Source of the DNA: a virus
IMG/VR virus record: IMGVR_UViG_3300024057_000011
Span: 1 to 24,452 of that record
DNA: 24,452 nt
Reading direction: 5' to 3' (one strand)
Shown here: positions 1 to 16,873 of the stretch, piece after piece
How positions within the stretch are numbered: the first letter of the stretch is position 1
Layout: each line of letters begins with the position of its first letter
Notes under the pieces: generated by a model
Told to the model about the DNA's origin: nothing
Databases searched by the model: none
What the model saw: only the letters and a program-made list of their open reading frames with translations
Program-made: the position numbers and the translations under genes

Positions 1-490
1 GAAACTGACCAGAGCCAGGGCTGTCGAAAGTGATGTTTTTTGCTGACCTCTCAAGCTTAGAGAACCCCGTGTGAGTGGCGGATGCCCACGGGTTGTATTC
101 CGAGGTGTCTGAATCAGAACTGCTTAGTAGATAGGCTGAGTAGTAGACACGGGCATCGTCAGCAACCAGATCAATACCCAAGCTCGCTCGAGTATTGTCA
201 GTGTCAGCATTAGCACCGAAGATAACCTCGCTTGCCGCATTCACCTTCGCTATGTCGATGTTTCCAGATGTGGCAGACGCGCCCATTAGGAAGTTAGAGT
301 TAAGGAGCATTGCGCCGCCAGCCTGAAACAACGTCCTCTTGTTGGTCACGTCAAACTCAACGACCTTGGCTGTGCCCACCGAGTCATCAGACACAATGAT
401 GTTCTGGCCGGCAGTGATTGGCGTGATCCAGTTGGCCCCAATGTTGTTGTAGCCGCCTACGGGGATGATTTGGTTAGTGATTGTTGCCAT
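1..490 (-). CDS. Truncated virion structural protein (N-terminal 163 residues)
   Basis: An open frame starts at ATG 488-490 and runs off the left edge without a stop. The visible protein begins MATITNQIIPVGGYNNIGAN and is rich in Ser, Thr, Asn, Gly and Asp with alternating hydrophobic residues, as expected of a beta-rich, non-enzymatic virion protein. There is no signal peptide, membrane segment or catalytic motif. It starts 3 nt after the stop of the adaptor candidate (TAAGCTATG) with no good SD, so translational coupling is likely. Its place after capsid and adaptor genes suggests a tail, decoration or fibre-attachment protein. The structural assignment rests on position and composition only. 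Confidence 0.6.
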   Translation of the reverse strand, partial: MATITNQIIPVGGYNNIGANWITPITAGQNIIVSDDSVGTAKVVEFDVTNKRTLFQAGGAMLLNSNFLMGASATSGNIDIAKVNAASEVIFGANADTDNTRASLGIDLVADDARVYYSAYLLSSSDSDTSEYNPWASATHTGFSKLERSAKNITFDSPGSGQF

Positions 491-493
491 AGC

Positions 494-1153
494 TTAAGTC
501 GCAAATGTTACATCACCCGTAGATGCTTGAAATACCTTGGGGTGAAGGCTTCGTAGTTTCTGGGAAGCAGCCCTGTCTCTCTTGGCGGCAGCTTTCCCGT
601 TCAGATAATCTTTCTCGTATTTGAGTAGTAGTATCTCCTTGTCTCCACTAAAGAGATGCGGATACATGGTGAGAACACCCCAGGCGAGAGTCCTGTGGTG
701 CGCTCGAGCAAACTGAGGAGAATTGCTAAGAACTATTGTTGGTGGAGTTTTGTAATAGTGAAGGACCAAGGCCCAACTGTCGCCCGTAGGCACTTCCTGT
801 GCGAGAATGATATCATCACCGTGGCGGGTCCAGATATTGTAGCGTCTATCGTCCTTTCTCAACCAGGTGCGATAATCACGGTTAATCCAAGGATCTCTCT
901 GCCCATCAACGAAGAGGGCATGTTCCTTCTCGAAGTCGCTAATGGCAAAGTCAGTTACGATAGAGGCTGTGTCGTCACCAGCAGTAAGGGTGTAGGTCCC
1001 AGACGTAAGAAGTTCGTCCGGCCTGATCTCCGTGACAATCTCATCATATTTGACCTTCAGCGTGGCATAAACGTCGGTATATAGGTCACCATCAATATCC
1101 GTCGACGTGTCCAGCTTAAGGAACACCAGGTCCAAGACTTCTTGGAAGGTCAT
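494..1153 (-). CDS. Head-tail adaptor (connector) candidate
   Basis: This 219-residue soluble protein begins MTFQEVLDLVFLKLDTSTDI. The N-terminal helical segment, a central beta-rich part (residues about 45-130) and a YYKTPP stretch near residue 133, followed by a basic helical C-terminus, resemble podophage adaptor proteins that dock under the portal. Adaptors of this kind usually lie just downstream of the capsid gene, as here. The start has only a weak SD and follows a 55-nt gap containing a terminator-like hairpin, so its expression may be lowered relative to capsid. A different small neck or tail protein cannot be excluded. Confidence 0.5.
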   Translation of the reverse strand: MTFQEVLDLVFLKLDTSTDIDGDLYTDVYATLKVKYDEIVTEIRPDELLTSGTYTLTAGDDTASIVTDFAISDFEKEHALFVDGQRDPWINRDYRTWLRKDDRRYNIWTRHGDDIILAQEVPTGDSWALVLHYYKTPPTIVLSNSPQFARAHHRTLAWGVLTMYPHLFSGDKEILLLKYEKDYLNGKAAAKRDRAASQKLRSLHPKVFQASTGDVTFAT

Positions 1154-1170
1154 GAGCCAACACGCAGAGG

Positions 1171-1198
1171 GAAGAAGAGGGAGTTCCTCGCTCCCCCC
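1171..1198 (-). terminator. Terminator-like hairpin after the head genes
   Basis: Read leftward, a GGGAG/CTCCC stem (arms 1191-1195 and 1179-1183) with a 7-nt loop is followed by the pyrimidine run TCTTCTTCCC. It lies in the only clear gap between capsid-region genes. The U run is interrupted, so partial termination or attenuation between head and neck genes is more likely than a full stop. Confidence 0.35.
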
Positions 1199-1208
1199 TG
1201 CTCCCTAG

Positions 1209-1577
1209 TTATGCGCTTGTTCTACCGTGAATCAACTTACAGTCAATCACGCCAGCGGCATCGGTGGACAAACTGTTCACCACCACTACGTTGACGGATG
1301 TCGTGTCAGTTGGATTCACAAGGCTCGAGCCCGCAGCTACTCTCAACTCATAGCACGTCCCAGCGGCACTGGTTGCGAGGTCCTGAGTCAAAACAGTAGT
1401 GCCCGAGTTGAGTACCTGCACACCCGCGCCCGTTGAAGGGGCAGTTACAATGCGCAGATCTAGCCCAATAAGTCTCCACTGCTTAGTCTTAGACCACATC
1501 GTTTTCTCAGTGATGGCCGCCGAAGGAGTGCTAATGGTGAAGGTTGTTTCCTGAACATTTGTATAATCAGTACTCAT
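1209..1577 (-). CDS. Small head protein, possible capsid decoration protein
   Basis: This 122-residue protein begins MSTDYTNVQETTFTIS. It is rich in Thr, Ser, Val and Ala and appears to be all beta (for example VVVVNSLSTDAAGVIDCKLI near the C-terminus). It has no cysteine cluster or membrane segment. It starts directly on the stop codon of the major capsid gene (TAATG at 1575-1579) behind a strong SD (ACGGAGGT), so it should be made at levels close to capsid. Size, composition and position suit a head decoration or stabilising protein. I do not recognise the family. Confidence 0.6.
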   Translation of the reverse strand: MSTDYTNVQETTFTISTPSAAITEKTMWSKTKQWRLIGLDLRIVTAPSTGAGVQVLNSGTTVLTQDLATSAAGTCYELRVAAGSSLVNPTDTTSVNVVVVNSLSTDAAGVIDCKLIHGRTSA

Positions 1578-2536
1578 TACACACCTCCGTAGTTCATGAT
1601 GGCACCCTCAGTGTGGAGCGTGAAGTTTTTAGGGGCCTGAAAACCTTCCATCGACTGCCAAGCAATACCCGATTGGTTTCCAAAATCCATCCCCACGTTC
1701 AACTGCACTCGGAAGTGAAGCGGATATGGCCCAAGAATCTGCTTGATGGCTTCAAAGCCGCAAACAAATCCACTTGGGTTAGAATTCGCCGCCGTTAGAG
1801 AGAACGCATCATTATCAACAATGAGTCTCAAGCGACCAATCTTTCCAACCTCACCGTTTAGCACCTCACCAACCATCCCCTCACTGTACTTGGCAATATC
1901 GACATACTGACCGGCGGCAGTTCCAAGGAGCAAGTCGCTCTCCAGTTCTGGGCGTCCAATCATGATGAAGTTCTTGCCGTCAGCAGGTGGAGTGTTGTTG
2001 TTGTCCAAGTCCTTAACTAGGGTAATTGCGTGTAGCCAGTTAAAGGACGAGTTCGCGGTGCCGGTCACGGTTCCATCTGTGGTTAATGTTCGCGTGGTTG
2101 CAGCGGTCGCAACGTAACCAAAGGAGGCTTGCGCCACCAGTGCGGTGTAAATCACCTTGTTTCGTGTGCGAGCAGCGTTATCACGCAGCGCCTTAATTGT
2201 CTCGTCCCTAACTGAAAGACGATCCAAATCAGCACGGCTTCCTGTCCAAAGAACGCCAAGCGCCCTCCGGTAAATAGTCCCCGTTACTTCAAAGATTGGG
2301 GTCTGATACGTCGGCACAGGCTGTAGCTCGGTCAGGGCAGTGTCGCCAAGAGTGGTTAGACGGCCCACGATTCGAGTTGTCACCCGGTCGCCGCTGTTTT
2401 TGCCGATGTTAAAATCCGTCGCTGGCGATACTACCTCAAAACATCTGGTCTGCTTTGCAGCCAAATGCCGAGCCTTCATCGACAGTTCCGGGTTTCCGTA
2501 GACACCGGCTGATATGGAGGTCCATGTTGCAGCCAT
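1577..2536 (-). CDS. Major capsid protein
   Basis: At 319 residues it matches the size of HK97-fold coat proteins. It follows a scaffold gene and precedes a small head protein. The segment around residues 45-110 (KNSGDRVTTRIVGRLTTLGD, then a stretch ending TALTELQPVPTYQTP) has the pattern of the E-loop and spine helix seen in N4 gp56-like and P22-like coat proteins, and the alpha-helical run SVRDETIKALRDNAARTRNK follows. There is no N-terminal delta domain, consistent with a separate scaffold. The SD AGAGGAA lies 7 nt before the ATG. The protein should assemble into the procapsid shell around scaffold and portal. Fold assignment rests on pattern and gene order. Confidence 0.8.
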   Translation of the reverse strand: MAATWTSISAGVYGNPELSMKARHLAAKQTRCFEVVSPATDFNIGKNSGDRVTTRIVGRLTTLGDTALTELQPVPTYQTPIFEVTGTIYRRALGVLWTGSRADLDRLSVRDETIKALRDNAARTRNKVIYTALVAQASFGYVATAATTRTLTTDGTVTGTANSSFNWLHAITLVKDLDNNNTPPADGKNFIMIGRPELESDLLLGTAAGQYVDIAKYSEGMVGEVLNGEVGKIGRLRLIVDNDAFSLTAANSNPSGFVCGFEAIKQILGPYPLHFRVQLNVGMDFGNQSGIAWQSMEGFQAPKNFTLHTEGAIMNYGGV

Positions 2537-2547
2537 TGGTGTTTCCT

Positions 2548-3270
2548 CTAATCATCAATATTCATGGCACGGTTATGTTTAGAGACTATTTCTTCCATTT
2601 CCTTTTTCATTTCAGCCTCCTCGTCAAATGTGCTTTCTTGCGACCCACCGGGGGTACTTGCGCTCTTGCTCGGCACCGAGGCTGCCGCTTTTACACGCGC
2701 CTCAAAATTGCCCAGTCCGAGATTTTCAACGAGATCATGATATTGTTTCACAGCAGCATCAAACCGTTCCGTAATGGTTCCTTCGTTCGGGTTCATAGTG
2801 GCGTAGTAAGAACCGATAGTGCTCCACTCCTTGTCAGTAAGGGGGACGTTATTGTCTTCGTGTCTGCGCCGCTGAGTGTTGAGAGCTAAATCAAACTCAT
2901 CGTCTATGGCCTTCTTTTCGTCGACTGTCTCAACTGCCTTTTGTGCAGCGGCGTCAATCACTTCCGAGAAGGTGCCTACTGGGTCTTTAAGGAACTGCTC
3001 TACTACTACCCGCTGTTGGTTGGTGGCGTTTCCTCCCTGAAGGGCTGTAGTTGCAGCATTCAGTCTGTCCTGCAAAGCCTTTGTTTGGTCTGCCGCCTCT
3101 TTCACAACTTTGTCAGTCTCACCCTTCTGCGCGACAATCGCCTCGGCAATCGCCGATTTGGTCAGGGCCTCGACCTGCTCCATTGTTACACTCGGCGGAG
3201 TCGTACTGCCTTCTGTTTTAGGTGCAGTATCGCCCGTGGGTGTAGTTGGGTTTTCTGTTTCTAGCGTCAT
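2548..3270 (-). CDS. Capsid scaffold protein
   Basis: This acidic, mostly helical protein has 240 residues. The N-terminus is disordered and rich in Thr, Pro and Glu (MTLETENPTTPTGDTAPKTE). A long coiled-coil stretch with regular Ala, Gln and Lys follows (residues about 35-130). The C-terminus is short and charged (EMKKEMEEIVSKHNR), as expected of the coat-binding tail of scaffolds. The frame extends upstream to a TTG at 3294, but ATG 3268-3270 is preferred because AGAAGGAC lies just upstream. It sits between portal and capsid, the classical scaffold position, and its start overlaps the previous gene by 53 nt. It would be expelled during procapsid maturation. Confidence 0.75.
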   Translation of the reverse strand: MTLETENPTTPTGDTAPKTEGSTTPPSVTMEQVEALTKSAIAEAIVAQKGETDKVVKEAADQTKALQDRLNAATTALQGGNATNQQRVVVEQFLKDPVGTFSEVIDAAAQKAVETVDEKKAIDDEFDLALNTQRRRHEDNNVPLTDKEWSTIGSYYATMNPNEGTITERFDAAVKQYHDLVENLGLGNFEARVKAAASVPSKSASTPGGSQESTFDEEAEMKKEMEEIVSKHNRAMNIDD

Positions 3271-3511
3271 GTTGGTCCTTCTTATTTCTTTCAATCGCGT
3301 TTATCTGTACGTCGTTCTGCTCGAAAATCCATTCGTGCCAATCAAGTACTTTGCACATTCCCTGAGCATAACGAACTTGCGCTTCAGAGGACTCCGAATC
3401 CTTCAGTATGTCCTCTGACTCTTTCTTCATGGCCCTAATTGGCTGAGCAATGAACCGCTGATATTGCGAGTCTTGCTGAAGCCTTTTTAGGAACATTTGC
3501 TTGTCTTTCAT
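3218..3511 (-). CDS. Small helical protein between portal and scaffold
   Basis: This is a 97-residue charged protein with a predicted helical body (residues about 1-75, including AQGMCKVLDWHEWIFEQNDV) and a basic C-terminal tail. Its ATG overlaps the portal stop (ATGA at 3508-3511), so translation should be coupled to portal. Its end overlaps the scaffold start by 53 nt. A small gene at this place is common in podophage head modules, but I do not know a function. It could help portal or scaffold assembly. Confidence 0.6.
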   Translation of the reverse strand: MKDKQMFLKRLQQDSQYQRFIAQPIRAMKKESEDILKDSESSEAQVRYAQGMCKVLDWHEWIFEQNDVQINAIERNKKDQHDARNRKPNYTHGRYCT

Positions 3512-5649
3512 TGAACTGCCGCTCCATTAACTGGTGCTGGTTCTTCATCGTTAAGTCCCATGATGTCCAAAACTTCTGGTGGGACGGGTTGAATCTGTAG
3601 CCCCATTTGCGCCGCAAACTCAGCGTGAACCTGAATGTGGCCAGAGGTTGCATCGTTTGGCGTGATTAGAACTTGCTCATAGTGAACATTGAGGTGGACC
3701 TGATGCTCCTCGTCTGGGTGTGGCTGAATCATCTTGTCGTCAGCGAGTATCCTATTCTCCTCTCGAGCAGTGTCGTGTGGAGTGTTCTGGCGAATGAGTT
3801 TGTCAGTATCGAGACTAAGGGCTTCCCCTAAACCACGAAGAACTTCTTTATAGTCAATGTCCGCATCCATGCTCGGGTTCTGTCCTCCAACAGTAACGAA
3901 CTCGGTAAGACGCTGCGCCCGGTCGTTTCTCTCCAGGATGTCCCTAAAGCCATGAATCTTGATTCGCCAAGGACTCATCACCTCATTGTAGCGAGCAATT
4001 TTGTCAACACCGACGAGTAAATCAAAGTCCGCCCCGGTTATGACTCCCTGATCCCGTATGCGCTCTAGGTTGCCTCTCTCAAATCCATGTTGAAGGATAT
4101 TGGCCAATACTCTTTTAGCAGTGGGCCTTATCACCTCGTTGTCGACAATGGCACCCATGGTCGTTTGGGATTGCCCTTGACGAGTCAAGTTGGAGCGGAT
4201 TTCTTCTGCTGTAATTCTTGCACGAGAACTCGGGTTGCTCTCCTGGGTGTCTACCGAAGAGCCCTGCTCTGCTGTAAGCTGCAAGAACTGGACGGCCTGC
4301 AACACACTAGCCCCCACACCCACACCTACGGGCAGTTGAGAGAAAATCTTTCCGGCATCACCAAGCCCCTCGATTAATGCGGCTGGCTCGATACCGTTTT
4401 CTAACTGAGATGGGTCTGCGATTTTAGAGGAGTCATAGACAGTGGGATTAAGAACGGCCAGTTTCAGCATATCCATGTAGAGGCTGAAGATGTCGTTCAT
4501 CAGTAAGTTCTGGTCAATGCCAGGATCGGCAACTCCGGCACCCACTCCTTTAAACGGCACCTTGGAGAAGGTCGCTGTGTAGTAGGGAGACTCCTGAGTG
4601 TAGTAAGGGTTTTGTTGGTCCTTGCAGAGAACATCGTTCACGACAACAAAGTGCTTGTTCTCTTCGAGAATAGCCCCGTCCTTGTCTAATAGCGGGCCAT
4701 AGTAGTTGAGCAACTCACATTCGGGGAAGTAAGGACTAGATTCCTCTAGCTGGTTCTTCTGGGCATAGTCCTGCCCTTCCCTGGTGCTGGAGTGAGTGAG
4801 TCCGGCGTTGGCCGTGCTGCCCTCGGCGTTCCCGCCTTTCAGCACGTCTTTTCTCTTCCTGGGGTCAAGAATGCCGTTTTCAAACCAAGCCTCTAACTGA
4901 TAGAAGCGCCAAAACTGCTGCTCAATGTCATAAAGGGTGTCGTTAATGTTGCTGACGTTGGGTTCCCAGAAGCGGTTGAACGGATTGATTAGATCAAACT
5001 GACTCCCTAACTGCATCACCTTCTTACTGCCAATGCGCATGTTGGCAATGCGGCTACCCACGGGAGTAAGCTCCTTCACCGCCTTTTGGAGTGCCGCCTC
5101 CATCCCCTCCTCGTCGTTGGCGAAGTCAACTCCGTCCTGCTCTATTTTGGACGCTATCTTCTCTAGTTCCTTCTGGTCCTGCTTCTCGAGGTTATCAACA
5201 ACTATCTGCGGCTTCATAGCCAGCCTTGGGGTTACGGAACAGCCCATTGGAAGCACCCCATAAATACTTCCAATCAGCATCCCCTCGTAGAAGCGAGTCT
5301 CAAAGTCGGTCTGTCCGAGTTCGTAGCGAAGCATGTTTTGAAGAATGCGGGTGAATTCCGCGTCTGCGTCATCACTCTCGAGACTCAGAATCTCCGGCTG
5401 GCTGAAGATCATGTTGTAGGCGGTGGCTCCCCCTTGCCTCACCACGGCGGAGAACAAGGGAATAAACACCCTACTCATCCACGGATTCTCATCGCGGGTC
5501 TTTCCCCAGTCCTGCTGATTTCTAAAGAGGCTCTGCGCCACCTCCCAACGGGACCTGTCAGGCTCCATCTTCATTTGGGAGAAGCGCCGAACCTCGTTCA
5601 CCTGCTCGACGATATGCGTCTGTCGTTTCTTACCAGTGAGGCGGACCAT
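3508..5649 (-). CDS. Portal protein (P22-like size class)
   Basis: The 713-residue product is close in length to the P22 portal (about 725). It is mostly alpha-helical, with a conserved-looking opening (RFSQMKMEPDRSRWEVAQSL, then NPWMSRVFIPLFSAVVRQGG) that matches the wing region of podophage portals. A helical stem region follows in the middle, and a Gln- and Pro-rich crown or C-terminal segment at the end. It forms the dodecameric ring at one capsid vertex that binds terminase and adaptor. A TAGGAG SD lies 6-7 nt before the ATG. It lies downstream of the terminase and upstream of the scaffold, as expected. Confidence 0.85.
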   Translation of the reverse strand: MVRLTGKKRQTHIVEQVNEVRRFSQMKMEPDRSRWEVAQSLFRNQQDWGKTRDENPWMSRVFIPLFSAVVRQGGATAYNMIFSQPEILSLESDDADAEFTRILQNMLRYELGQTDFETRFYEGMLIGSIYGVLPMGCSVTPRLAMKPQIVVDNLEKQDQKELEKIASKIEQDGVDFANDEEGMEAALQKAVKELTPVGSRIANMRIGSKKVMQLGSQFDLINPFNRFWEPNVSNINDTLYDIEQQFWRFYQLEAWFENGILDPRKRKDVLKGGNAEGSTANAGLTHSSTREGQDYAQKNQLEESSPYFPECELLNYYGPLLDKDGAILEENKHFVVVNDVLCKDQQNPYYTQESPYYTATFSKVPFKGVGAGVADPGIDQNLLMNDIFSLYMDMLKLAVLNPTVYDSSKIADPSQLENGIEPAALIEGLGDAGKIFSQLPVGVGVGASVLQAVQFLQLTAEQGSSVDTQESNPSSRARITAEEIRSNLTRQGQSQTTMGAIVDNEVIRPTAKRVLANILQHGFERGNLERIRDQGVITGADFDLLVGVDKIARYNEVMSPWRIKIHGFRDILERNDRAQRLTEFVTVGGQNPSMDADIDYKEVLRGLGEALSLDTDKLIRQNTPHDTAREENRILADDKMIQPHPDEEHQVHLNVHYEQVLITPNDATSGHIQVHAEFAAQMGLQIQPVPPEVLDIMGLNDEEPAPVNGAAVQ

Positions 5650-5658
5650 GCCTGACTC

Positions 5659-5907
5659 CTACAGTGGGTCTTTCGCGTGTCGACTAGTAGGAACAGTTTT
5701 GCCTATACCCTCTCTCTTAGCGTCGTAGCCAGGATCGGGAGATTCGCTTTTCATTGAGCCAGTGCCATCACCTTTGGGCATCGACCAACTTTTGACCTCT
5801 GAGCCACTAGATCCGCCAGTTCTCTTGGCACACTCAGGACCAGACTTTTCTGGCATCTTTCCCACGCCAAGCGGGGCTTCTTTGTACTGAGCTTTATTGC
5901 TAGGCAT
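5659..5907 (-). CDS. Small hydrophilic protein between terminase and portal
   Basis: This 82-residue low-complexity protein is rich in Lys, Gly, Ser and Pro (for example SMPKGDGTGSMKSESPDPGY) and is probably disordered. Its ATG sits on the terminase stop (TAATG) behind a very strong SD, CAGGAGG, that lies inside the last terminase codons. It is 9 nt from the portal start. The strong SD argues that it is real. It may be a minor head or assembly factor, but no family is recognised. Confidence 0.6.
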   Translation of the reverse strand: MPSNKAQYKEAPLGVGKMPEKSGPECAKRTGGSSGSEVKSWSMPKGDGTGSMKSESPDPGYDAKREGIGKTVPTSRHAKDPL

Positions 5908-7634
5908 TACTTACCTCCTGGTATTAGGGGTTGCATGTGAAATCCGTCGTCATAACGGGATATATTCATGGAAGGTTCGGTTTCGCGCTGAGTTGAGGGC
6001 CTGAATCCGATTGTTCTCGGGGCCTGCTTTCGACGCCTGAAGTGCTGAGGTTTGGTGAAGCGGTCCACCATTAAGAACAACCGACGAGCTTGATAGTCCG
6101 TCTTGGCTGTCTTAAATCTGTCGCACGCTAGTCCGTATAACTCACCATTATACTTACAAACGGCAACAATGGCGGTGAAGTCTGCATCATCATCGACTGA
6201 AAAAGCCGGGTCCATCCAGATGAAAACACCTGGCGCAGATTCCGCACTTCCCTCATGAGCTAAATTGGTAGCACATGCAAAGGCATCAATGCAATCATCT
6301 TTTCCTTTGGGGAAGTCCCTAATCTCTTGTCCGAGACTATCATCGGCTAAAAGTATGCTCCTTTCTAGGTGGCACTGACCGTCCGCTATCCAGTGCTGAA
6401 GATTGGTCTTAATCTTAGTCTCTTTGTTCATTGTTTTCGGGGCGTTATACCCCTCAATGGGGAAGCTGCGATTCTCCTTTTTCATCATGGCCCGGAAGGT
6501 GGTTACGAGGTTCGCGGCCTGGCTGTCACACTCCACCCCAACTTTTATTACTCGGCCCAGTGAAAATGGCGGTATCTTGAGGAAACTCTTCAACATTTCG
6601 ACATCAAATTGCCGGTCAACGTCCCTCATGGGTTGATTCCAATACTGCCCAGAATAGCGATGTCCAGCATTAGATTTGTGAGATGCATCTGTCTCTTCGT
6701 TCTGCCCGACAACCATCTCATTGCCGCTCATATCGAAGTAAGTGGTGCGCGGCCAGATGAAATACCCCTGCTTGTCCTTGATGCCCAGCACCATCTTCTC
6801 GAGTGGCGCGTGTGTCCCTACCTTCTTGTCTTCCAGAATATCAGCATAAACATCGTCATATTCCCAGCGGGTGCCGATAACGATGAAGGGCACATAGTCA
6901 TTAAGGGTTCTCATTGCCTCGCCGTAGAACTTCTTGACCTTCTTCATCTTCACGGGCGAGTCAGCAATTTCCTCATTAATCACATCATCAAGAATCATCC
7001 CGCCGTTCCAGTGGGAACCAGTAATGTTACCCATTACGCCATAGCTCCCGATGGCCGGATCGATGCGCTCTACGGAAAAATCCCCCTCAGTCATGGCATC
7101 AAGGTTGAGCCAGTAGCCCTTATCCCCCCACTTGTCTCCTGGAACCACGTCAGGGAAGCAATGCTGATAATTCTTGTTGTTTGAGATGATTTTGGAGTTA
7201 ACTTTGGCCATTTGGTTGGCCTTACCCTCCGCTGCATTGCAAATAACGCAGGTAACGAAGGGGTTTCTGGCTAACCACCATGCCGGTCGGCAGGCAGTGA
7301 TGCTTCCAGACTTGCCGTGATCGCGCGGAACAAGGAGTAGGCACCCAGGATCGGCCTCATAGCGGTCAATAAAGGGTATAATCTCCTCGCCGTGGAGCCA
7401 CGGGTCCATCCAGCGGTATTGAAGGATCTCGTTAAGGTAAAACCAGTAGTCAGTCTTGGCGAATTGCGCCGTTGCCTGGAAGAACGCTAGCGGATCCTGC
7501 TCCTTTATCTGCCTTAGAAGCTCTCTTTGCTCTTCTAGCCTTCTTTCGCACGGGGCTTTTCGGCCCTTGAGCTTCGGGTTTCGGGCTATTGGCCTGAGTT
7601 TCTTCGACACTATCTTCGTTTTCGGCAAATTCAA
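5907..7634 (-). CDS. terL: Terminase large subunit with permuted nuclease domain
   Basis: This 575-residue DNA-packaging motor cuts concatemers and pumps DNA through the portal. The N-terminal ATPase has Walker A VPRDHGKSG (residues 102-110), Walker B MILDD (213-217) and the coupling motif VIGTRW (252-257). The C-terminal nuclease has all three acidic motifs, but in the order VGVECD (E368), KGKDDCIDA (D446, D447), then MDPAFS with DADFTAIV (D475). In the usual family order the DPAFS motif comes first. The domain therefore looks circularly permuted, with no stop or frame break. The start is uncertain: the longest frame begins with TTG at 7634 without a clear SD, overlapping the upstream gene by 185 nt. 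A GTG at residue 9 is an alternative. Confidence 0.9.
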   Translation of the reverse strand: MNLPKTKIVSKKLRPIARNPKLKGRKAPCERRLEEQRELLRQIKEQDPLAFFQATAQFAKTDYWFYLNEILQYRWMDPWLHGEEIIPFIDRYEADPGCLLLVPRDHGKSGSITACRPAWWLARNPFVTCVICNAAEGKANQMAKVNSKIISNNKNYQHCFPDVVPGDKWGDKGYWLNLDAMTEGDFSVERIDPAIGSYGVMGNITGSHWNGGMILDDVINEEIADSPVKMKKVKKFYGEAMRTLNDYVPFIVIGTRWEYDDVYADILEDKKVGTHAPLEKMVLGIKDKQGYFIWPRTTYFDMSGNEMVVGQNEETDASHKSNAGHRYSGQYWNQPMRDVDRQFDVEMLKSFLKIPPFSLGRVIKVGVECDSQAANLVTTFRAMMKKENRSFPIEGYNAPKTMNKETKIKTNLQHWIADGQCHLERSILLADDSLGQEIRDFPKGKDDCIDAFACATNLAHEGSAESAPGVFIWMDPAFSVDDDADFTAIVAVCKYNGELYGLACDRFKTAKTDYQARRLFLMVDRFTKPQHFRRRKQAPRTIGFRPSTQRETEPSMNISRYDDGFHMQPLIPGGK

Positions 7635-7800
7635 TCACCGGACGAATGTGCGCAAACAGTGCAGGAGCAAACCAGCCAGCATAAACATCGCCGGTCCTCC
7701 CATTTTCCGTGCAGGCGTCGACGATGGGCTCCGGGTCCTCGTAAAGCTTACTGCATGTTCCGTCTGGCAGTTGTAGAAAGTATTTTAATCCCGGTTCCAT
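7450..7800 (-). CDS. Hypothetical protein overlapping the terminase start
   Basis: A 116-residue protein. Its N-terminal half looks folded (MEPGLKYFLQLPDGTCSKLY, then a GWFAPALF patch). Its C-terminal half is low complexity and rich in Lys, Arg, Ala and Pro. The C-terminal 185 nt overlap the terminase frame. An SD (GGGGA) lies about 7 nt before the ATG, and the gene overlaps the end of the preceding gene by 53 nt. The folded part lies wholly upstream of the overlap, so the basic tail may be the constrained partner. It has no known family. A role with the terminase is possible because the two are probably translated together. Confidence 0.5.
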   Translation of the reverse strand: MEPGLKYFLQLPDGTCSKLYEDPEPIVDACTENGRTGDVYAGWFAPALFAHIRPVIEFAENEDSVEETQANSPKPEAQGPKSPVRKKARRAKRASKADKGAGSASVLPGNGAIRQD

Positions 7801-8185
7801 CCATGTCCCCTATCTTTTTCTTAGATAGATAATCATCGACTAGTTGTTTGCCCTTTCCAGTAGGTTCGGCTGGCTTGACCGGCACACGCTGAATCTTACT
7901 GGTGGCATTCCAACCCTTACGACAGGCCAGTACATGCCGGGCTTTCTGAAAATCATAGTTCTTGTATTTCTCAGGAAGTTCCTGCCCCATTGCGTCCATC
8001 ATCACCAAATGCTCGAGGATGTTGTAGGACTCCTCTTCCACCTCCATGAATCGCTTCAGGTGCAATCCGCGAAGTTCCATAAATTCCAGGAACTCCATGT
8101 CCAATATCTTCGCGCAACCAGTATAGTCAAGAGGATGTGAGCGCAAATGCTCGAGAACTTCCAGTATCTTTTCAGTCAGGTCCAT
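7748..8185 (-). CDS. Candidate terminase small subunit
   Basis: A 145-residue protein. Its N-terminus (residues about 3-45, LTEKILEVLEHLRSHPLDYT then GCAKILDMEFLEFMELRG) resembles a helix-turn-helix. A helical middle region follows, then a basic, flexible C-terminus (SKKKIGDMDGTG). This layout of DNA-binding head, helical oligomerisation region and tail fits small terminases, and the position one gene before the large subunit supports it. Such a subunit would recognise the packaging site and load the large subunit. Sequence alone does not prove the family. The SD is weak (AAGG close to the ATG), and the start follows the upstream stop by 3 nt. Confidence 0.4.
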   Translation of the reverse strand: MDLTEKILEVLEHLRSHPLDYTGCAKILDMEFLEFMELRGLHLKRFMEVEEESYNILEHLVMMDAMGQELPEKYKNYDFQKARHVLACRKGWNATSKIQRVPVKPAEPTGKGKQLVDDYLSKKKIGDMDGTGIKILSTTARRNMQ

Positions 8186-8188
8186 GCC

Positions 8189-8566
8189 TTATTGTGACAC
8201 CTTTTTCTTAGGCTTGTCACCCTTTTTCACAGACTCCTCCTCTAACCCCCTCAACTCATTGACGAACTCACGGGCTTTCTCCTCGTCCGCCATGATCGCA
8301 GCTTCCGGGTTTTGAATGCGATGGGCGATAGTAAGGAATCGAGCCAGAGCGCTCAAGCTACTCCAGAACACTCCAAGCTGCTCATTGTCATGCGACCCCG
8401 GAGCAGTGGAGCAAATAGTGATGTGCTTGTCCACAGAAACCGCACTATAGAAGTCGTCAATGCGTAGGCGATTAACAGTGCCATCAAGCAGACACTTCAC
8501 CTGATTCTCCAAACTGTCCTGCTTACTCAACACGGTTTTCCGCTCGGCGTTTAGTGCCTCTTTCAT
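8189..8566 (-). CDS. Hypothetical protein upstream of packaging genes
   Basis: This 125-residue, mixed helical protein begins MKEALNAERKTVLSKQDSLE and ends in a strongly charged tail (EEESVKKGDKPKKKVSQ). No membrane segment or known motif is visible. Its ATG overlaps the stop of the preceding gene (TAATG at 8564-8568), with GAGG 9 nt upstream, so the two are co-translated. I do not recognise a function. Confidence 0.55.
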   Translation of the reverse strand: MKEALNAERKTVLSKQDSLENQVKCLLDGTVNRLRIDDFYSAVSVDKHITICSTAPGSHDNEQLGVFWSSLSALARFLTIAHRIQNPEAAIMADEEKAREFVNELRGLEEESVKKGDKPKKKVSQ

Positions 8567-9087
8567 TAATTAATCCTCATTCCTGATTGCGGATTCTGCA
8601 CTCGGCTCTCTGTCTGCTTCATCCGAATGTCCGCGTTAGTAAGGTCTGTTTGGTGCTGGCGAATGATAGCTTCCAGGGCTTCCTGCCTGCGCTCTATGTT
8701 GTTGATCTTCACCTGTAGGTTTTGCAGCGAATTCAAATTTGGCTGGTCACTAAGAGGGGCAGTAAGGGGAAGTGCTCCAGGCACAACTAGCGGTATGCTC
8801 TCTCCGGGGGTGCCCGTATAGTCAGGGGTGTCACTACCTTCCGCTGGTGGCGGTCCCCCGAGTATGTCCGCAACAATAGACTGGTCTACCACTTTCGGTG
8901 GAGGAGGAGGCGGTGAGGGAATTGGTTCAGGGGGGGTGTCGCAACTAATAGTGAAGGGAGGTTGCTCGGGAATAGTCAACTTCTGGAGCACGTCAATGAG
9001 AACGTCAAGCTTCTGCTCTACTCCGTTACTCTCCGGCTTCTTTTTCGCCACCCTGCGCTTCGGGCTCTTCTTCTCCGTAGGACTCAT
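8566..9087 (-). CDS. Proline-rich linker plus coiled-coil protein
   Basis: A 173-residue protein in four parts. It has a Lys-rich start, a short helix (VEQKLDVLIDVLQKLTIPEQ), a Pro-rich linker with a run of six prolines (PSPPPPPPK), and a C-terminal coiled coil (NLQVKINNIERRQEALEAII). The frame also has an ATG at 9091-9093, but the SD GGAGG abuts that codon. It lies 6 nt before the ATG at 9085-9087, which is therefore the better start. Its shape suggests a tether or oligomeric scaffold between two partners. It could be a minor virion or packaging accessory protein. The family is unknown. Confidence 0.55.
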   Translation of the reverse strand: MSPTEKKSPKRRVAKKKPESNGVEQKLDVLIDVLQKLTIPEQPPFTISCDTPPEPIPSPPPPPPKVVDQSIVADILGGPPPAEGSDTPDYTGTPGESIPLVVPGALPLTAPLSDQPNLNSLQNLQVKINNIERRQEALEAIIRQHQTDLTNADIRMKQTESRVQNPQSGMRIN

Positions 9088-9382
9088 TGCCATCCTCCAA
9101 TCCTTGCAACACCCTCATTCCAAACGGTATCGCATCCATTCGCAATATATGATACAGCGTCTCCAACTCAACAGTGTTCCACGTCATCTTCTCCCGCCAA
9201 CCGTCCTTGTGGTTTTTGCGCCAAGACACATCAATCTTGAACACCGCATACGGCTTCCGGTCATAAACAGACTCATTGCGCCAACACTGAACACTCACTC
9301 CCCTCCTACCACCATCAACCCGCGTATACCATCTGCGCAACGGCTGCTCCGGCTCTAAGTCTGGATTGTATCTCTCCCCCAC
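9026..9382 (-). CDS. Hypothetical Trp/Arg-rich protein
   Basis: A 118-residue protein starting with GTG at 9380-9382, one base after the stop of the preceding gene. The central part (WRNESVYDRKPYAVFKIDVS and a KMTWNTVELETLYHIL helix) looks like a small alpha/beta fold. The last 25 residues are acidic and low complexity and overlap the next gene by about 60 nt. The SD is weak, so initiation probably depends on the upstream gene. No known motif is visible. Confidence 0.5.
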   Translation of the reverse strand: MGERYNPDLEPEQPLRRWYTRVDGGRRGVSVQCWRNESVYDRKPYAVFKIDVSWRKNHKDGWREKMTWNTVELETLYHILRMDAIPFGMRVLQGLEDGNESYGEEEPEAQGGEKEAGE

Positions 9383-9383
9383 G

Positions 9384-9641
9384 TCACACCGTCTTCAACG
9401 CCAAATACTCCTCCATCTCCGCCGTCAAGTCCTGCCGCGACGCTATGATCGGTCGCAATTTTCGCAGTAAGGAATCAGCCCTCTCCAACTTCAACTCCAC
9501 ACTCACTATCGGTATCGACGCCGATATGTCCTCGGTGAGTTCGTCAACAATCACCTCGTCAGGAGTAGCCCCCGCAATCTCAGTCACATCAGCAGCTAAT
9601 CCCACTTCACCAAACAACCCTTCCTTCTTCTTCTTCGCCAT
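9384..9641 (-). CDS. First gene of the leftward late unit, hypothetical
   Basis: An 85-residue acidic protein with a basic start (MAKKKKEGLFGEVGLAADVT) and an amphipathic helical C-terminus (ELKLERADSLLRKLRPIIAS). A good SD (GGGAGAG) lies 5 nt before the ATG. It is the first gene reached by leftward transcription from the 1.4-kb control region. No domain is recognised. It could be a small regulatory or assembly protein. Confidence 0.55.
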   Translation of the reverse strand: MAKKKKEGLFGEVGLAADVTEIAGATPDEVIVDELTEDISASIPIVSVELKLERADSLLRKLRPIIASRQDLTAEMEEYLALKTV

Positions 9642-9814
9642 GTCACTCTCCCACTTTCACCGTAACCGTCACTAGACACTTATCCACATACCACACTTAC
9701 ACACCACCGCGCACCACTTTTATCGTTTGCGAAAACACTAACTCCCTCATATAGATACATTCCCCCATGCTTCCACTCACCTTCTATCTGGGGTTTTGGT
9801 GAAAAATCATAGAC

Positions 9815-9837
9815 GGGGTATTAACGGGGAGGGAGGG
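9815..9837 (+). other. Putative G-quadruplex motif
   Basis: Four G runs fit the intramolecular quadruplex rule: GGGG, a 7-nt spacer, GGGG, A, GGG, A, GGG. The motif lies on the strand opposite to the late transcripts and about 175 nt upstream of the first late gene. It could affect transcription, replication or packaging. Only the motif is seen, not a function. Confidence 0.45.
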
Positions 9838-10165
9838 AGACATGCGCATTTCTTCACACTTCGTGACTCACACGGAAGGACTCGGCATTAGTGCCTCGAG
9901 GACCCCACCACCCACCAGCCCAGCACCACCAGGCATACGCAGCTAACACGGCAGTAAGGAAGAACCACGGCACGGCACACCCAACACTGCGGTAATATGT
10001 ATGTATATCGAGCACGCACGTCCGGGGCCTGGGGGGCAGTAGCCCACACGCTCACCGGCCGAACGCCAGACCACCCCACCTTATAGGGAGTAAGGAAGAT
10101 ATGTGAATACCCCAAAGCGCCATAAACGAGAACAAGGGCCCTCTCGCTGTCGGGCTCCATATTGA

Positions 10166-10185
10166 CCGATAACAAGACTTATCGG
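10166..10185. repeat. Inverted repeat, operator-like
   Basis: A perfect 7-bp inverted repeat, CCGATAA-(6 nt)-TTATCGG. The right arm overlaps the proposed -10 of a leftward promoter, a typical placement for a repressor site. It is too short and lacks the U run of a terminator. Confidence 0.5.
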
Positions 10186-10205
10186 ACATCACATAAGTTA
10201 CTCAA
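10178..10205 (-). promoter_or_regulatory. Leftward sigma70-like promoter for the late unit
   Basis: Read leftward, TTGAGT (10205-10200), a 16-nt spacer and GATAAG (10183-10178) give 4/6 matches to each consensus box. It points toward the late genes, with a long leader of about 530 nt, and its -10 lies in an inverted repeat. The boxes are moderate, so a phage activator or repressor may be involved. Confidence 0.3.
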
Positions 10206-10223
10206 TATTGTACCAAACGCTAA

Positions 10224-10236
10224 GTTACACTGTAAC
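10224..10236. repeat. GTTACACTGTAAC palindrome with flanking half-sites
   Basis: A 13-bp palindrome, GTTAC-ACT-GTAAC. Further half-sites occur nearby: GTTAC at 10197-10201 and TGTAAC at 10245-10250. The cluster lies 35-85 nt upstream of the rightward promoter-like sequence, so it could be a binding array for a phage regulator. Confidence 0.45.
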
Positions 10237-10282
10237 AACACATCTGTAACTGCCCGCACACACTGGCCTTCTCAGAAAGTAC

Positions 10283-10314
10283 TTGACAAGGTGGTTATCA
10301 ACAGTTCCTATATA
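10283..10314 (+). promoter_or_regulatory. Rightward promoter-like sequence
   Basis: A perfect -35 box TTGACA (10283-10288) is followed by an AT-rich CTATATAA segment. The best -10 (TATATA, 10309-10314) gives a 20-nt spacer, longer than ideal; shorter spacings give poorer -10 boxes. It points toward the early genes and lies just downstream of the GTTAC boxes. Confidence 0.4.
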
Positions 10315-10990
10315 ACCCATGAGGCTCGCTAAGACCCCACCTAAAGAGTCCCCTCCCAAGGCACAATCTAGAGTTAGTCGTTAGGATGAATACGTCCCGT
10401 TGGTAGTGATGTGGGTGTATGATGCAGTGTTAAAGCCCCCCAACAGCCAAGACTCATAGCCGCGGTGCCCTCACCTTGGCCTAGTCCTGCGGTGCAGTAG
10501 CTCCTCAGACTTAGTTAAAAATCAATATGCTTCGCGTTAATTAAGAAGATCTACGGTAGTATGTTAGAGCGAAGACCCAACAGCCCCATTAATGACGCGC
10601 CCGAACGCGAGTTCTCTTCTTGGCTCTATCTGTTCCACGATACTCATCATGTCGCTGGTTCTCCACCCCAAAACCCCACCACTCCCCCTCCTTGCTAATC
10701 CTTTCCATAAACAAAGCCTAATTGACAGTAAAAGAGGAATCGGGGCAATCCCTTACCCGCAAGTGGGGCGGTGAAACAAGCGAACTCCGCCATCAAGACC
10801 AAACAGACATCAAAAAACTATCTAACCAGGATTCCATAACCCCCGTCTAAGAGCCGACCTCCAAAGCAGTGGGCTAGCACCCGCAAGCAATTAAGTCTAT
10901 TCTGTGTAATTTGCACAAACGGTTATTAGTGGATGCCCCTACCAAATGTAATAAGTTTGTAACACCCCAATTATCTTCTTCCTTCCCCTG

Positions 10991-11048: not shown

Positions 11049-11258
11049 ATGAAATCAGACAACTGGAAAGACTATTATCTTTGTTCCCCCGAAGACATTC
11101 AAGCCGCTGTTACGAAAGACCGACTCCGCCCCGTGCTTATCAGATGCGGCAGCGGTCGCTTGACTTGCCCCGCTCAGGATGCACAACACTGGATTGACAT
11201 CATTAAACGTGAAGACAGCGACTATATTAGAGACGTTTCTTACCCCGCAGGCTACTAA
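11049..11258 (+). CDS. First early gene, hypothetical
   Basis: A 69-residue acidic/mixed protein starting MKSDNWKDYYLCSPEDIQAA. It has three cysteines (at about residues 12, 34 and 41) but no paired CxxC, and no membrane segment. It starts with the phage leader AAAGGAAAAACGACATG, which shows a strong SD and identifies the start. It is the first gene of the rightward unit and is followed by a short GC-rich hairpin (GGGGC-AGGT-GCCCC, about 11265-11278). No family is recognised. Very early small proteins of this kind often act on host proteins. Confidence 0.6.
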   Translation: MKSDNWKDYYLCSPEDIQAAVTKDRLRPVLIRCGSGRLTCPAQDAQHWIDIIKREDSDYIRDVSYPAGY

Positions 11259-11343
11259 CAACCGGGGCAGGTGCCCCACGCAGCGCAGGCAGTTCAGCTT
11301 GTGTTGCGCGGATCATCTAAACCAAACAACAAGGAAAAACGAC

Positions 11344-12321
11344 ATGCATGACATCGAAGAAAACAACGCATTCTACTTTGGCAAACCAGCTTGGCACGGC
11401 CTTGGAGTAACCTTGGAAGAGCACATCGACACACGCGAAGCTGCTTTGATTGCTTATGCTGGTAGACACTTAATCGAGCTTGAGCTTAAAGCGCACCTCG
11501 AAGACACCGACGAAACAATGGACATAGACACACACAAAGCTATTGTCCGTTCAGACGGCGAGCTTTTAGGCGTGGTTGGCAGCGGCTACACTCTGATACA
11601 ACCGGAAGAAGCTTTTGATTTCTTCCAACCGTGGCTTGATTCGGGCCTTGTAACCCTGGAAGCAGGCGGCAGTCTAAGAAACGGCACCCGACTTTGGGCA
11701 CTTGCTGCAATCAAAAACAGTGAAGAGCCTATTGTGGGCAACGACACCGTGAAAAGTTACTGCTTAGTTTACACCAGCTTTGACGGCAGCCTAGCACACG
11801 GCATCGGACAAACTAATGTCAGAGTAGTTTGCAACAACACGCTCCAATTTGCAGACCAAATAGACGCTGATTCTATTGTCCGCTTCAAACACACCAAAAA
11901 CCTGAAATCACGCATTGACAACGTTAAGCAGGACATCGACCGGAGGTTAGCAAAACACCACAACTCAGTATTAATGTATCGCCAACTTGCAGAGAAAAAG
12001 ATGGAGCGCAAAGAACAAGAGCTTTACATTGAAGATGTCTTTATCACCAAGCAGATGAAGGAAAAAGCAATCGAAGAGAAAAAACCCATATCCACAAAAA
12101 CGCTCAATAAAGTTCAAACGGTTCAAGACTTGATCGACAATCAAAGAGGGCTTGAGCTTGTGCCAGCCACACGTGAAACAGCTTGGCAGGCATACAACGC
12201 AGTAACCGAATACCTAACCCACGACGCTGGAAACGGCGACGACTCACGACTAAATGCACAATGGTTTGGAGGAAACCGAGCAGTAAACAGCAGAGCTTTA
12301 GAACTTGCACTGGCCGCATAA
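11344..12321 (+). CDS. DUF932 phage/plasmid-like protein
   Basis: A 325-residue protein matching the DUF932 (TIGR03299 phage/plasmid) family by its opening (NAFYFGKPAWHGLGVTLEEH), the HKAIVRSDGELLGVVGSGYT block, the VRVVCNNTLQ motif near residue 185 and a helical basic C-terminal half. Family members are common early genes of phages and plasmids; their biochemistry is not settled. The frame extends upstream, but the ATG at 11344 follows the conserved leader AAGGAAAAACGAC and gives the family-typical N-terminus, so it is preferred. Confidence 0.85.
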   Translation: MHDIEENNAFYFGKPAWHGLGVTLEEHIDTREAALIAYAGRHLIELELKAHLEDTDETMDIDTHKAIVRSDGELLGVVGSGYTLIQPEEAFDFFQPWLDSGLVTLEAGGSLRNGTRLWALAAIKNSEEPIVGNDTVKSYCLVYTSFDGSLAHGIGQTNVRVVCNNTLQFADQIDADSIVRFKHTKNLKSRIDNVKQDIDRRLAKHHNSVLMYRQLAEKKMERKEQELYIEDVFITKQMKEKAIEEKKPISTKTLNKVQTVQDLIDNQRGLELVPATRETAWQAYNAVTEYLTHDAGNGDDSRLNAQWFGGNRAVNSRALELALAA

Positions 12322-15008: not shown

Positions 15009-15052
15009 ATTCTAGCGGTCCGGTATTCTTGCGCTAAGACGCTAAACCGTAG

Positions 15053-15090
15053 GGGGCGGGTGAGACACAAGGCACCCAGCCCCGCTTTTT
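15053..15090 (+). terminator. Promoter-proximal terminator or attenuator hairpin
   Basis: The stem GGGGC-GGGTG (15053-15062) pairs with CACCC-A-GCCCC (15073-15083, one bulged A) around a 10-nt loop and is followed by GCTTTTT (T run 15086-15090), a classical intrinsic terminator. It lies only about 40 nt after the predicted transcription start. A second hairpin, GGGGG-TGGT-CCCCC, follows at about 15099-15112. It may attenuate the downstream operon or end a small RNA of about 75 nt. Confidence 0.55.
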
Positions 15091-15133
15091 CCAGGGAGGG
15101 GGGTGGTCCCCCATAAACGAGAGCAAAGGAACT

Positions 15134-15466
15134 ATGAAACTATTTGAGATACGAGATGCGGCGACATTCATACCCGTGATGTGCATAGCGATTCAGCCTG
15201 ACAGGCACAAGAAGGAGGATTATCTGTTGCGGCGTGCTGGGTTTGGCCCGGACTTTCGCTTGATTCAGGTGGTTTGGCTGGAGAACAACAAGACCTCCTA
15301 CGACCCCTATGGATGGGGAGGGGGGAGAACCTTACCCGAGGCCCATCGGTACATCGAGGAGAACTGGGACCAACTAAAGAGTGGGGATGTGATTGATGTT
15401 GAGTTCATCCTTGGCGAGACTGGAGTAAAGAAAGAATCAGAGAGAGTAAGTTCACCATATGCGTAA
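15134..15466 (+). CDS. Conserved phage protein (MKLFEIRDxATFIPV family)
   Basis: A 110-residue protein opening MKLFEIRDAATFIPVMCIAI with a conserved-looking middle (LLRRAGFGPD) and end (SGDVIDVEFILGETG). I recognise this as a small protein repeated in many phages, but without a known function. The SD AGCAAAGGA lies before the ATG. It is the first gene after the promoter/attenuator at 15 kb and overlaps the next gene by 8 nt. Confidence 0.65.
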   Translation: MKLFEIRDAATFIPVMCIAIQPDRHKKEDYLLRRAGFGPDFRLIQVVWLENNKTSYDPYGWGGGRTLPEAHRYIEENWDQLKSGDVIDVEFILGETGVKKESERVSSPYA

Positions 15467-15713
15467 ACTACCACCAGAAACATTCAGCGGGCAGGCATGT
15501 GGCCCGGTGATGGAAATAGAAAGCTACAACGTGACTGAATGGTGCCCTACCCCTGATGGGTCTGGTCAGCCGGAACAGGTGTGGCTACAAGTCAATTTGA
15601 AGGACGTGCCTATCCCGATGGCCCTTCGCCTTAAATCTATGGACGCAGTTGACACTTTGATTGAAGCTTTGACTCGGCATCGACTCAATGTTTGGCCACA
15701 GACAGTCACATGA
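15459..15713 (+). CDS. Conserved-type small phage protein
   Basis: An 84-residue protein starting MRKLPPETFSGQACGPVMEI and ending in a segment (MALRLKSMDAVDTLIEALTRHRLNVWP) that looks like a beta strand plus helix seen in other small phage proteins. The ATG overlaps the end of the preceding gene by 8 nt. It carries no catalytic motif. It may be a small dimeric protein; function is unknown. Confidence 0.6.
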   Translation: MRKLPPETFSGQACGPVMEIESYNVTEWCPTPDGSGQPEQVWLQVNLKDVPIPMALRLKSMDAVDTLIEALTRHRLNVWPQTVT

Positions 15714-15721
15714 GGGGGAAC

Positions 15722-16075
15722 ATGAACGAGAGCAAAGAGCGACTTCTTCCATGTCCGTTCTGCCCACCGGGCAGCAGTGAGCAGGAGTTAGAACTTGAAC
15801 CAGGATGCATGCCAGACGCTTGGTGGAGGGGGGTGTGCGACTCTGGGTGCGCTGGTCCGTGGAAGCCGACTAAGGCCGAAGCCGAAGCCGCCTGGAACAC
15901 AAGACACCGAGCATCCAACTGGGTGAGGGTGGAGACTGACCCACCAGAAACAGGTTCTTACTTATGCCTAACGCAGTTTGGATGGGACGTACTTGTTTGG
16001 AGTTCTGTTTTAGGTTGGGGGAATAAGAACCCGTGGCGTTGGCAACACCTCCCACCCCCACCAGAGGAGGAGTGA
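15722..16075 (+). CDS. Lar-like zinc finger fused to DUF551 domain
   Basis: A 117-residue protein. Residues about 8-60 have the Lar-type pattern: LLPCPFCPPG, two further cysteines and the TKAEAEAAWNTR ending. Residues about 65-117 match DUF551: NWVRVETDPPETGSYLCL, a strand-rich middle and the ending WRWQHLPPPPEEE. Lar proteins of phages and prophages alleviate type I restriction; the DUF551 role is unknown. The start follows GAGGGGGAAC. Its 3' end carries the SD of the next gene (AGAGGAGG) inside the PPPPEEE codons. Confidence 0.7.
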   Translation: MNESKERLLPCPFCPPGSSEQELELEPGCMPDAWWRGVCDSGCAGPWKPTKAEAEAAWNTRHRASNWVRVETDPPETGSYLCLTQFGWDVLVWSSVLGWGNKNPWRWQHLPPPPEEE

Positions 16076-16209
16076 TGCGAGACTGGATAGTCTTCTATTT
16101 TGTTATGTTGTTTCTTTGCATGGCCCTTCATGCATTCGAGAGCAATAAGAAGCACAACGAAGTGATGCAGCAGTTGGAATGTCTATCAAGCGAGTTGAGT
16201 AGGAGATAA
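16075..16209 (+). CDS. 44-residue membrane protein
   Basis: A 44-residue protein starting MRDWIVFYFVMLFLCMALHA and ending with a charged helix. One transmembrane span covers residues about 4-20. The ATG overlaps the preceding stop (TGATG), and the AGAGGAGGAG just upstream is a near-ideal SD. Its length and SD support a real microprotein, one of several in this cluster. Function is unknown. Confidence 0.55.
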   Translation: MRDWIVFYFVMLFLCMALHAFESNKKHNEVMQQLECLSSELSRR

Positions 16210-16214
16210 CATAT

Positions 16215-16286
16215 GCCCGGTGGCCTCCAGCGGGGGGTACTACTTAATGGCAACAGGCCAGCAGTGGGCTACCGCAGCCACCGGGC
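16215..16286 (+). ncRNA. Structured RNA element upstream of the lipoprotein gene
   Basis: A perfect 10-bp stem, GCCCGGTGGC (16215-16224) with GCCACCGGGC (16277-16286), closes a 52-nt region that can form inner helices (GGTA/TACC and TGGC/GCCA). It fills the gap between two genes, and the SD of the next gene (GGAGGG, about 16296-16301) lies just 3' of the stem. There is no U run, so it is not an intrinsic terminator. It could be a cis-regulatory leader; no known riboswitch class is recognised. Confidence 0.4.
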
Positions 16287-16304
16287 GCTTCTTAGGAGGG
16301 AGCA

Positions 16305-16601
16305 ATGAAACGAATAGTCTTAGCAGCTATCTTTTTATGTTCATGCGGTGGAGGTGGGGGAGGATACGACGGGCCGACCTGTGAAACCTACTGCGCTTAT
16401 GCCTGCAACAAGGGCGGGCAGTGCTTTGGCTTCACTCGGCGGCAAGTCGATCAGTGTGAGTATGAATGTGTAATGGGGACTGATCGGAATGGTAGGTCGA
16501 ATGAGTCATGTGGGGAGGCGCAGTACATGATGCAGGACATGACGTGTTTGGAACTAGCTATTACCCTCGGTCTAGTAAGGACAGGGGGGAGCAGTGACTA
16601 A
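16305..16601 (+). CDS. Cysteine-rich phage lipoprotein
   Basis: A 98-residue protein with a signal peptide (MKRIVLAAIFLCSC) ending in lipobox L11-C12-S13-C14, so Cys14 should be lipidated by the host. A run of six glycines forms a flexible tether. The mature domain carries about nine cysteines (for example CETYCAYACNKGGQC), suggesting a disulfide-bonded periplasmic or surface domain. The SD GGAGGG lies 3-5 nt before ATG. Phage lipoproteins made early often block superinfection, as known for Llp and Cor. That role is inferred only, since no sequence match is seen. Confidence 0.65.
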   Translation: MKRIVLAAIFLCSCGGGGGGYDGPTCETYCAYACNKGGQCFGFTRRQVDQCEYECVMGTDRNGRSNESCGEAQYMMQDMTCLELAITLGLVRTGGSSD

Positions 16602-16851
16602 CCAACTCAAACCGTGCCCGTTTTGCGGGGGTGAGCCACGACTAGAAGACGATTGCTGTGAATGGTGGGTTGAATGCCTAAAGTGCTGGGGTAGACTTGG
16701 CGCTGATCGGACTGAAGCCGAAGCCGTAGCCGCCTGGAACACAAGGCCCCTCCCACCCCCACCAGAGGAGGAGGTTAGACAAGACGGCTGGCGGGATGAC
16801 GCCGAGATGTTTGCTGCTTATGGGGACAAGGAAGACCCAGAAGGGTTATAG
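16594..16851 (+). CDS. Lar-like zinc finger (restriction alleviation family)
   Basis: An 85-residue protein starting with GTG, 8 nt inside the end of the lipoprotein gene, behind GGGGGAGCA. Residues about 4-48 have the Lar pattern: LKPCPFCGGEPRL, a second knuckle CLKC and the ending EAVAAWNTR. After this comes LPPPPEEE, identical to the end of the gene at 15722, then a unique acidic tail. Lar proteins modulate type I restriction enzymes. The presence of two Lar-like genes 0.5 kb apart points to duplication. Confidence 0.7.
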   Translation: MTNQLKPCPFCGGEPRLEDDCCEWWVECLKCWGRLGADRTEAEAVAAWNTRPLPPPPEEEVRQDGWRDDAEMFAAYGDKEDPEGL

Positions 16852-16873
16852 CTGATAAACGGGAGTATCGGAC

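Follow-up and report, generated by a model that had tools for sequence, protein, structure and literature searches.

A phage large terminase with a naturally circularly permuted, predicted RNase H-like nuclease domain

The large terminase (TerL), an almost universal viral protein, is encoded by one of the hallmark genes of tailed phages and herpesviruses; to our knowledge, its domains have been taken to follow a fixed order. The window analysed here, a 24,452 nt stretch of viral DNA (IMG/VR record IMGVR_UViG_3300024057_000011), carries a TerL gene that does not follow the customary motif order of D1, second acid and D3; the order in the window is second acid, D3, D1. The locus raises the question of whether the two halves of the nuclease domain have genuinely changed places in a functional protein. 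We conclude that the gene very likely encodes a working TerL of a little-known podovirus-like phage lineage, in which the RNase H-like nuclease is circularly permuted.

The gene is a single uninterrupted frame that opens with a TTG codon (Table 1). Its best match amongst the PHROGs was family 38, terminase large subunit (E 5.5e-50), and the NCBIfam T7-type TerL model matched below threshold. Homology and context otherwise class the protein as a TerL: it has a P-loop ASCE ATPase (PHROG_38 columns 251-493) with Walker A (PRDHGKS, residues 103-109) and Walker B (ILDD, residues 214-217) motifs, three acid motifs in an RNase H-like nuclease towards the C terminus, and a neighbourhood of portal and head genes. 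The P-loop and Walker B residues are largely invariant (alignment A6), and the nuclease acid motifs invariant, relative to the second permuted TerL described below. A preliminary description of the locus had reported that all catalytic residues were intact in one open frame, and that the Shine-Dalgarno sequence of the next gene was built into the last TerL codons. Both observations hold: the 575 aa ORF retains every catalytic acid, AGGAGG is found at 5919-5914, and the TerL stop overlaps the start of the next gene (TAATG, 5909-5905).

Table 1. Coordinates in the window of the TerL gene, its parts and neighbouring structural genes
Feature	Position	Strand	Basis
Major head protein, 319 aa	1577..2536	(-)	PHROG_1357, E 2e-16; 43% to the second phage's
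Portal/head-tail adaptor, 713 aa	3508..5649	(-)	PHROG_332, E 3e-16; 35% to the second phage's portal
Large terminase (TerL), 575 aa, nuclease circularly permuted	5907..7634	(-)	Open frame; PHROG_38
ATPase domain, residues ~35-345	6600..7532	(-)	PHROG_38 columns 251-493
New ATPase-to-nuclease linker, residues ~346-360, straight into beta4	6555..6599	(-)	Alignment to canonical TerLs; AF2
E-D3 block, first: beta4 with VGVE (E368), beta5, helix KDDCIDA (D446, D447, D450)	6255..6554	(-)	PHROG_38 columns 607-710, E 4.3e-13; block HMM 3.9e-23
Closure linker, residues 459-469, third-Asp helix to beta1	6228..6260	(-)	AF2 secondary structure
D1 block, last: MDPAFS...ADFTAI (D475, D485), beta1-beta2-beta3, helix A	6045..6227	(-)	PHROG_38 columns 549-590, E 7.6e-7; block HMM 5e-20
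C-terminal tail, residues 531-575 (~50)	5910..6044	(-)	Poorly conserved
Shine-Dalgarno AGGAGG of next gene, in last TerL codons	5914..5919	(-)	Sequence

Along the window gene, PHROG_38 matched in the column order 251-493, then 607-710 (E 4e-13), then 549-590 (E 8e-7), and the same order (251-493, 607-710, 549-590) was found in the DNA of a twin contig considered below. Two canonical controls each gave a single colinear match (283-719 and 266-727). Alignment to the profile in two halves, which had been proposed as a check, placed the middle block at columns 607-707 (E 9e-12) and the last block at 549-591 (E 1e-5). When aligned with Zobellviridae-like TerLs, the D1 block of the window protein corresponded to the canonical D1 region, and E-D3 formed an extra stretch ahead of it. 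Alignment to canonical TerLs revealed no first-Asp strand between the ATPase and VGVE, where the sequence reads FDVEMLKSFLKIPPFSLGRVIK. The D1 motif comes last, as described, at residues 474-490 (MDPAFSVDDDADFTAIV, with MDPAFS at 474-479), and KGKDDCIDA precedes it at residues 443-451. VGVECD was also correctly placed ahead of D1, but it occupies residues 365-370 rather than 366-370. Because the D1 block ends in FTKPQH and the other block opens K/VGVE (the slash marking the junction), the cut lies exactly before strand beta4; the corresponding junction in canonical TerLs of the L004 type reads KPQH/VGIE.

Scanning DNA for the reversed pattern, in which the D3 motif is followed after 50-80 bases by the D1 motif, yielded a homologue with the same arrangement, a TerL of 586 aa in one open frame on IMG/VR contig 3300022719_000136 (41,119 bp). 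PHROG_38 matched this second TerL in the gene order 235-531, 607-712, 551-607. The BLASTP alignment of the two proteins was colinear through both swapped blocks, with 37% identity over 517 aa (E 3e-120); restricted to the nuclease, it gave 32% over 190 aa (E 4e-25). By block, the identities were 0.43 (ATPase), 0.28 (E-D3) and 0.41 (D1). Residues E368, D446, D447, D450, D475 and D485 are invariant between the two, and the closure linker of ~11 residues has an identical length without gaps. The C-terminal tail shares only 22% identity, and pLDDT is low where it was modelled. The phages are also syntenic, with identities of 35% for the portal, 43% for the major head protein, 27% for a tail protein and 42% for an internal virion protein. 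The swap is thus in frame, with its acids kept, and is conserved in a distant phage with syntenic head genes, in agreement with the earlier view that it was real rather than decayed. Judged from the sequences, the reversed halves are a real and inherited circular permutation and not an error, since the swap recurs in a phage that is only distantly related. As the divergence of the TerLs matches that of the head genes, the permutation can be placed in a common ancestor; by this comparison it predates the split of the two divergent phages and has been retained since. In a tree of the ATPase domain the two permuted TerLs are sisters (100/91), with branches too long for deeper placement to be safe. 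No other TerL match was present in the window contig, the twin contig or the 41-kb second genome; the window and twin contigs are fragments, and for them this absence is firm only over the DNA that they cover.

Structure prediction with AF2 likewise gave a permuted RNase H-like fold. Residues 346-545 were modelled from alignment A7, composed of the window protein, the second member and pieces of canonical blocks, with a pLDDT of 80.8 and a pTM of 0.81. The predicted elements, in model numbering, are beta4 (17-24), alphaB (29-41), beta5 (48-52), alphaC (102-113), beta1 (125-130), beta2 (142-150), beta3 (153-162) and alphaA (167-179). All elements of the RNase H core, including its five strands, are present in the prediction, but the canonical chain order (beta1-beta2-beta3-alphaA-beta4-alphaB-beta5-alphaC) is not met, the model starting at beta4. 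As a possible counterpart of the auxiliary beta-hairpin peculiar to terminase nucleases, the model has only a short strand (model 76-78) between beta5 and alphaC. In an order-dependent Foldseek search with the model, viral TerLs matched half-domains only, over ~100 columns (rmsd 1.9-3.1) or ~60 columns (1.5-1.8), as expected for a permutation, and no solved structure was matched at E<=0.001. It should be noted that the unpaired pieces in A7 were placed by homology and that rows of the window and second member were repeated, such that the model still depends in part on the homology that was assumed. A poorer alignment (A3) reached a pLDDT of only 57, making Foldseek on that model meaningless; full-length MAFFT drew the blocks either to their canonical positions or onto the tail, A7 was preceded by several piece alignments that were set aside, and the divergence within the multi-way alignment A1 made it unsuitable for scanning. 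With these reservations, the nuclease domain is predicted to adopt a permuted RNase H-like fold.

We propose that the window TerL is most likely an ordinary packaging motor, although its activity and motor geometry are inferred in the absence of biochemical data. The chain runs from the ATPase into beta4 (VGVE), through the third-Asp helix (KDDCIDA) and a linker of ~11 residues to beta1-beta2-beta3 and helix A, and finally into the tail. The usual RuvC-like two-metal site would then be assembled from D475, E368 and D446/D447/D450; this is an inference, and no catalytic geometry was measured. In G20c TerL, whose nuclease has a similar two-metal RNase H-like site but a canonical, beta1-first topology, three acids (D294, D347 and D429) are indispensable (PMC5389553). 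The RNase H-like superfamily shares its core elements with the window domain, its canonical order beginning with beta1, and the C-terminal, third-Asp helix of terminases is antiparallel to beta1 (PMC3985635). This geometry makes a short closure linker plausible, with the end of the third-Asp helix presumed to lie near the start of beta1 so that the linker could close the ring. Concatemer cutting and DNA packaging would proceed as usual. Only the tether would differ: the ATPase would connect to beta4, where canonical TerLs use beta1, and the C-terminal arm would exit from helix A and not from the third-Asp helix. The change in the nuclease-ATPase connection, anticipated in the preliminary description, follows from the sequence, whereas its mechanical effect remains a surmise. 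D6E TerL has the same ATPase-linker-nuclease layout, and its C-terminal arm, which follows the last nuclease helix, reaches the ATPase site (PMC5727402). In the window protein the chain instead runs on from that helix to beta1; the position of the D6E arm is taken by the closure linker, so any such arm in the window lineage would leave helix A and act from another place. We infer that the arrangement probably arose when the nuclease segment was duplicated once in tandem and the outer halves were then lost.

Other explanations of the reversed order were considered. The window is a metagenomic contig, and its sole near relative is 100% identical and possibly from a related sample, so a scrambled assembly of a gene that truly has the usual order had to be weighed. 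That relative, IMG/VR contig 3300024517_000158, is identical to window positions 1-10756 (10,756 bp) but has different ends, indicating a separate assembly, and the two assemblies agree throughout. The window contains no Ns, and a repeat scan found no repeats of 14 nt or more touching 5850-6750. Above all, a contig from another metagenome, at 37% identity, shows the same order and the same linker length. Misassembly had been checked with the twin contig, the repeat scan, the N count and GC content, and was rejected once the second permuted TerL appeared; we now regard it as extremely improbable. Alternatively, the permutation could be real and the nuclease degenerate, leaving a motor-only protein while another protein cuts the DNA. 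Vestigial nuclease domains occur in some packaging motors, such as that of phi29 (PMC7672431), and the E-D3 block and tail are the least conserved parts of the window protein (0.28 and 0.22 identity). We nevertheless consider degeneration unlikely, given that the acids and the surroundings of the motifs (DPAFS, ADxTAIV, VGVE, DDxIDA) are invariant in two divergent members, and that the identity of the D1 block (0.41) is on a par with that of the ATPase (0.43).

A further rival is that the permuted chain, whose closure linker is short, might open and let the D1 block of one subunit complete the E-D3 block of the adjacent subunit in the motor ring; TerL is known to act as an oligomer (PMC5727402). 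Such a domain swap appears very unlikely, as AF2 gave a confident closed monomer and the geometry of the helix and beta1 favours closure within the chain (PMC3985635). The remaining possibility is a chimera, in which the phage did not permute its own domain but gained an E-D3 block from another TerL and lost the previous one. Zobellviridae-like TerLs are the best matches of the ATPase and D1 blocks, and TerLs of the L004 group the best match of E-D3; this closer likeness leaves a chimeric origin possible. Every piece nevertheless falls in one PHROG family, GC is even along the gene, and E-D3, a short block, is simply the one that has diverged most. On balance we judge a chimera rather unlikely; it would, in any case, likewise give a permuted domain.

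The closest canonical relatives help to place the window TerL. Zobellviridae-like TerLs of PHROG_38 (SIO1, ICBM1, ICP2) share the ATPase, both nuclease blocks and the catalytic acids, and their genes have the same neighbourhood as in the window (TerL, small gene, portal); they differ in having D1 before E-D3 in every case, at ~25% identity overall. TerLs of the L004 type, from 70-76 kb phage contigs, have the E-D3 block most like that of the window (31%), but combine canonical order with a different ATPase. We presume that these phages are N4-like (Schitoviridae). PHROG_20726, a 199 aa family of unknown function, matches the TerL nuclease blocks in canonical order (3-66 D1, 70-174 E-D3), and may represent either a family of free-standing TerL nucleases or TerLs that have been split.

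Amongst fetched loci, separate D1 and E-D3 HMMs identified 197 ORFs in canonical order, and every permuted ORF was a copy of one of the two genes. Both permuted members were included in building these HMMs; the PHROG result is independent of them. INPHARED, PLSDB and GTDB genome contigs yielded no relatives with permuted order, searches by sequence in Pfam and PDB returned nothing, and single-sequence searches of viral and genome contigs returned only the twin contig and L004. The portal and head proteins had no INPHARED match, which marks the lineage as uncultivated. The pattern scan with K encoded as AAA matched only the window phage, and the matches of the scan with H encoded as CAC are a lower bound; two of the four K/H codon variants were covered, with AAG and CAT left out, so further permuted TerLs may exist. 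Among the matches listed there are at least two permuted lineages, both metagenomic. The literature searched, which excluded subscription papers and preprints, held nothing relevant on a permuted RNase H, RuvC or terminase nuclease, and neither 'permut-' nor 'circular' occurs in a survey of the RNase H-like superfamily (PMC3985635). The earlier statement that no described family has this order stood in PHROGs, Pfam, NCBIfam, INPHARED and the literature as far as searched, and within those databases and that literature we found no previous description of a permuted TerL nuclease.

We think it probable that these phages form a lineage, which may rank as a family, and that its only TerL contains a functional and naturally permuted RNase H-like nuclease. 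If so, this would be the first naturally permuted nuclease in a packaging motor, and the motor would tolerate, or exploit, an altered mechanical coupling of the nuclease to the ATPase. Being a natural variant with which phages are still built, the permutant would offer a ready-made test of motor models that rely on the tie between the two domains, and the permuted TerL would mark a new lineage. It would also serve as a warning that TerL profile searches can split such genes into pieces or miss the nuclease.

Several observations concern other genes of the two phages. A 116 aa ORF (window 7450-7800) overlaps the TerL start by 185 nt, out of frame, and in the second phage an ORF at 4338-4793 likewise overlaps the TerL start at 4639; the two overlapping ORFs showed no mutual sequence match at E 1e-3. 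Upstream of TerL, a 145 aa ORF (7748-8185) weakly matches its positional counterpart in the second phage (24%, E 8e-4), and by its position is a candidate small terminase. The internal virion protein is one 672 aa ORF in the window phage (L014:3763-5781) and two overlapping ORFs (15012-16403 and 16400-16990) in the second phage (L319:15012-16990), a difference that could stem from a frameshift, from an error in sequencing or from a genuine split. Another 145 aa ORF (18919-19356) matches a DNA methyltransferase PHROG of 345 columns (E 4e-43), but over columns 62-203 only, and in view of this partial coverage may be a truncated or split methyltransferase. Finally, a 380 aa protein (11179-12321) that matches PHROG_1221, of unknown function (E 2e-54), opens the + strand arm of the genome.
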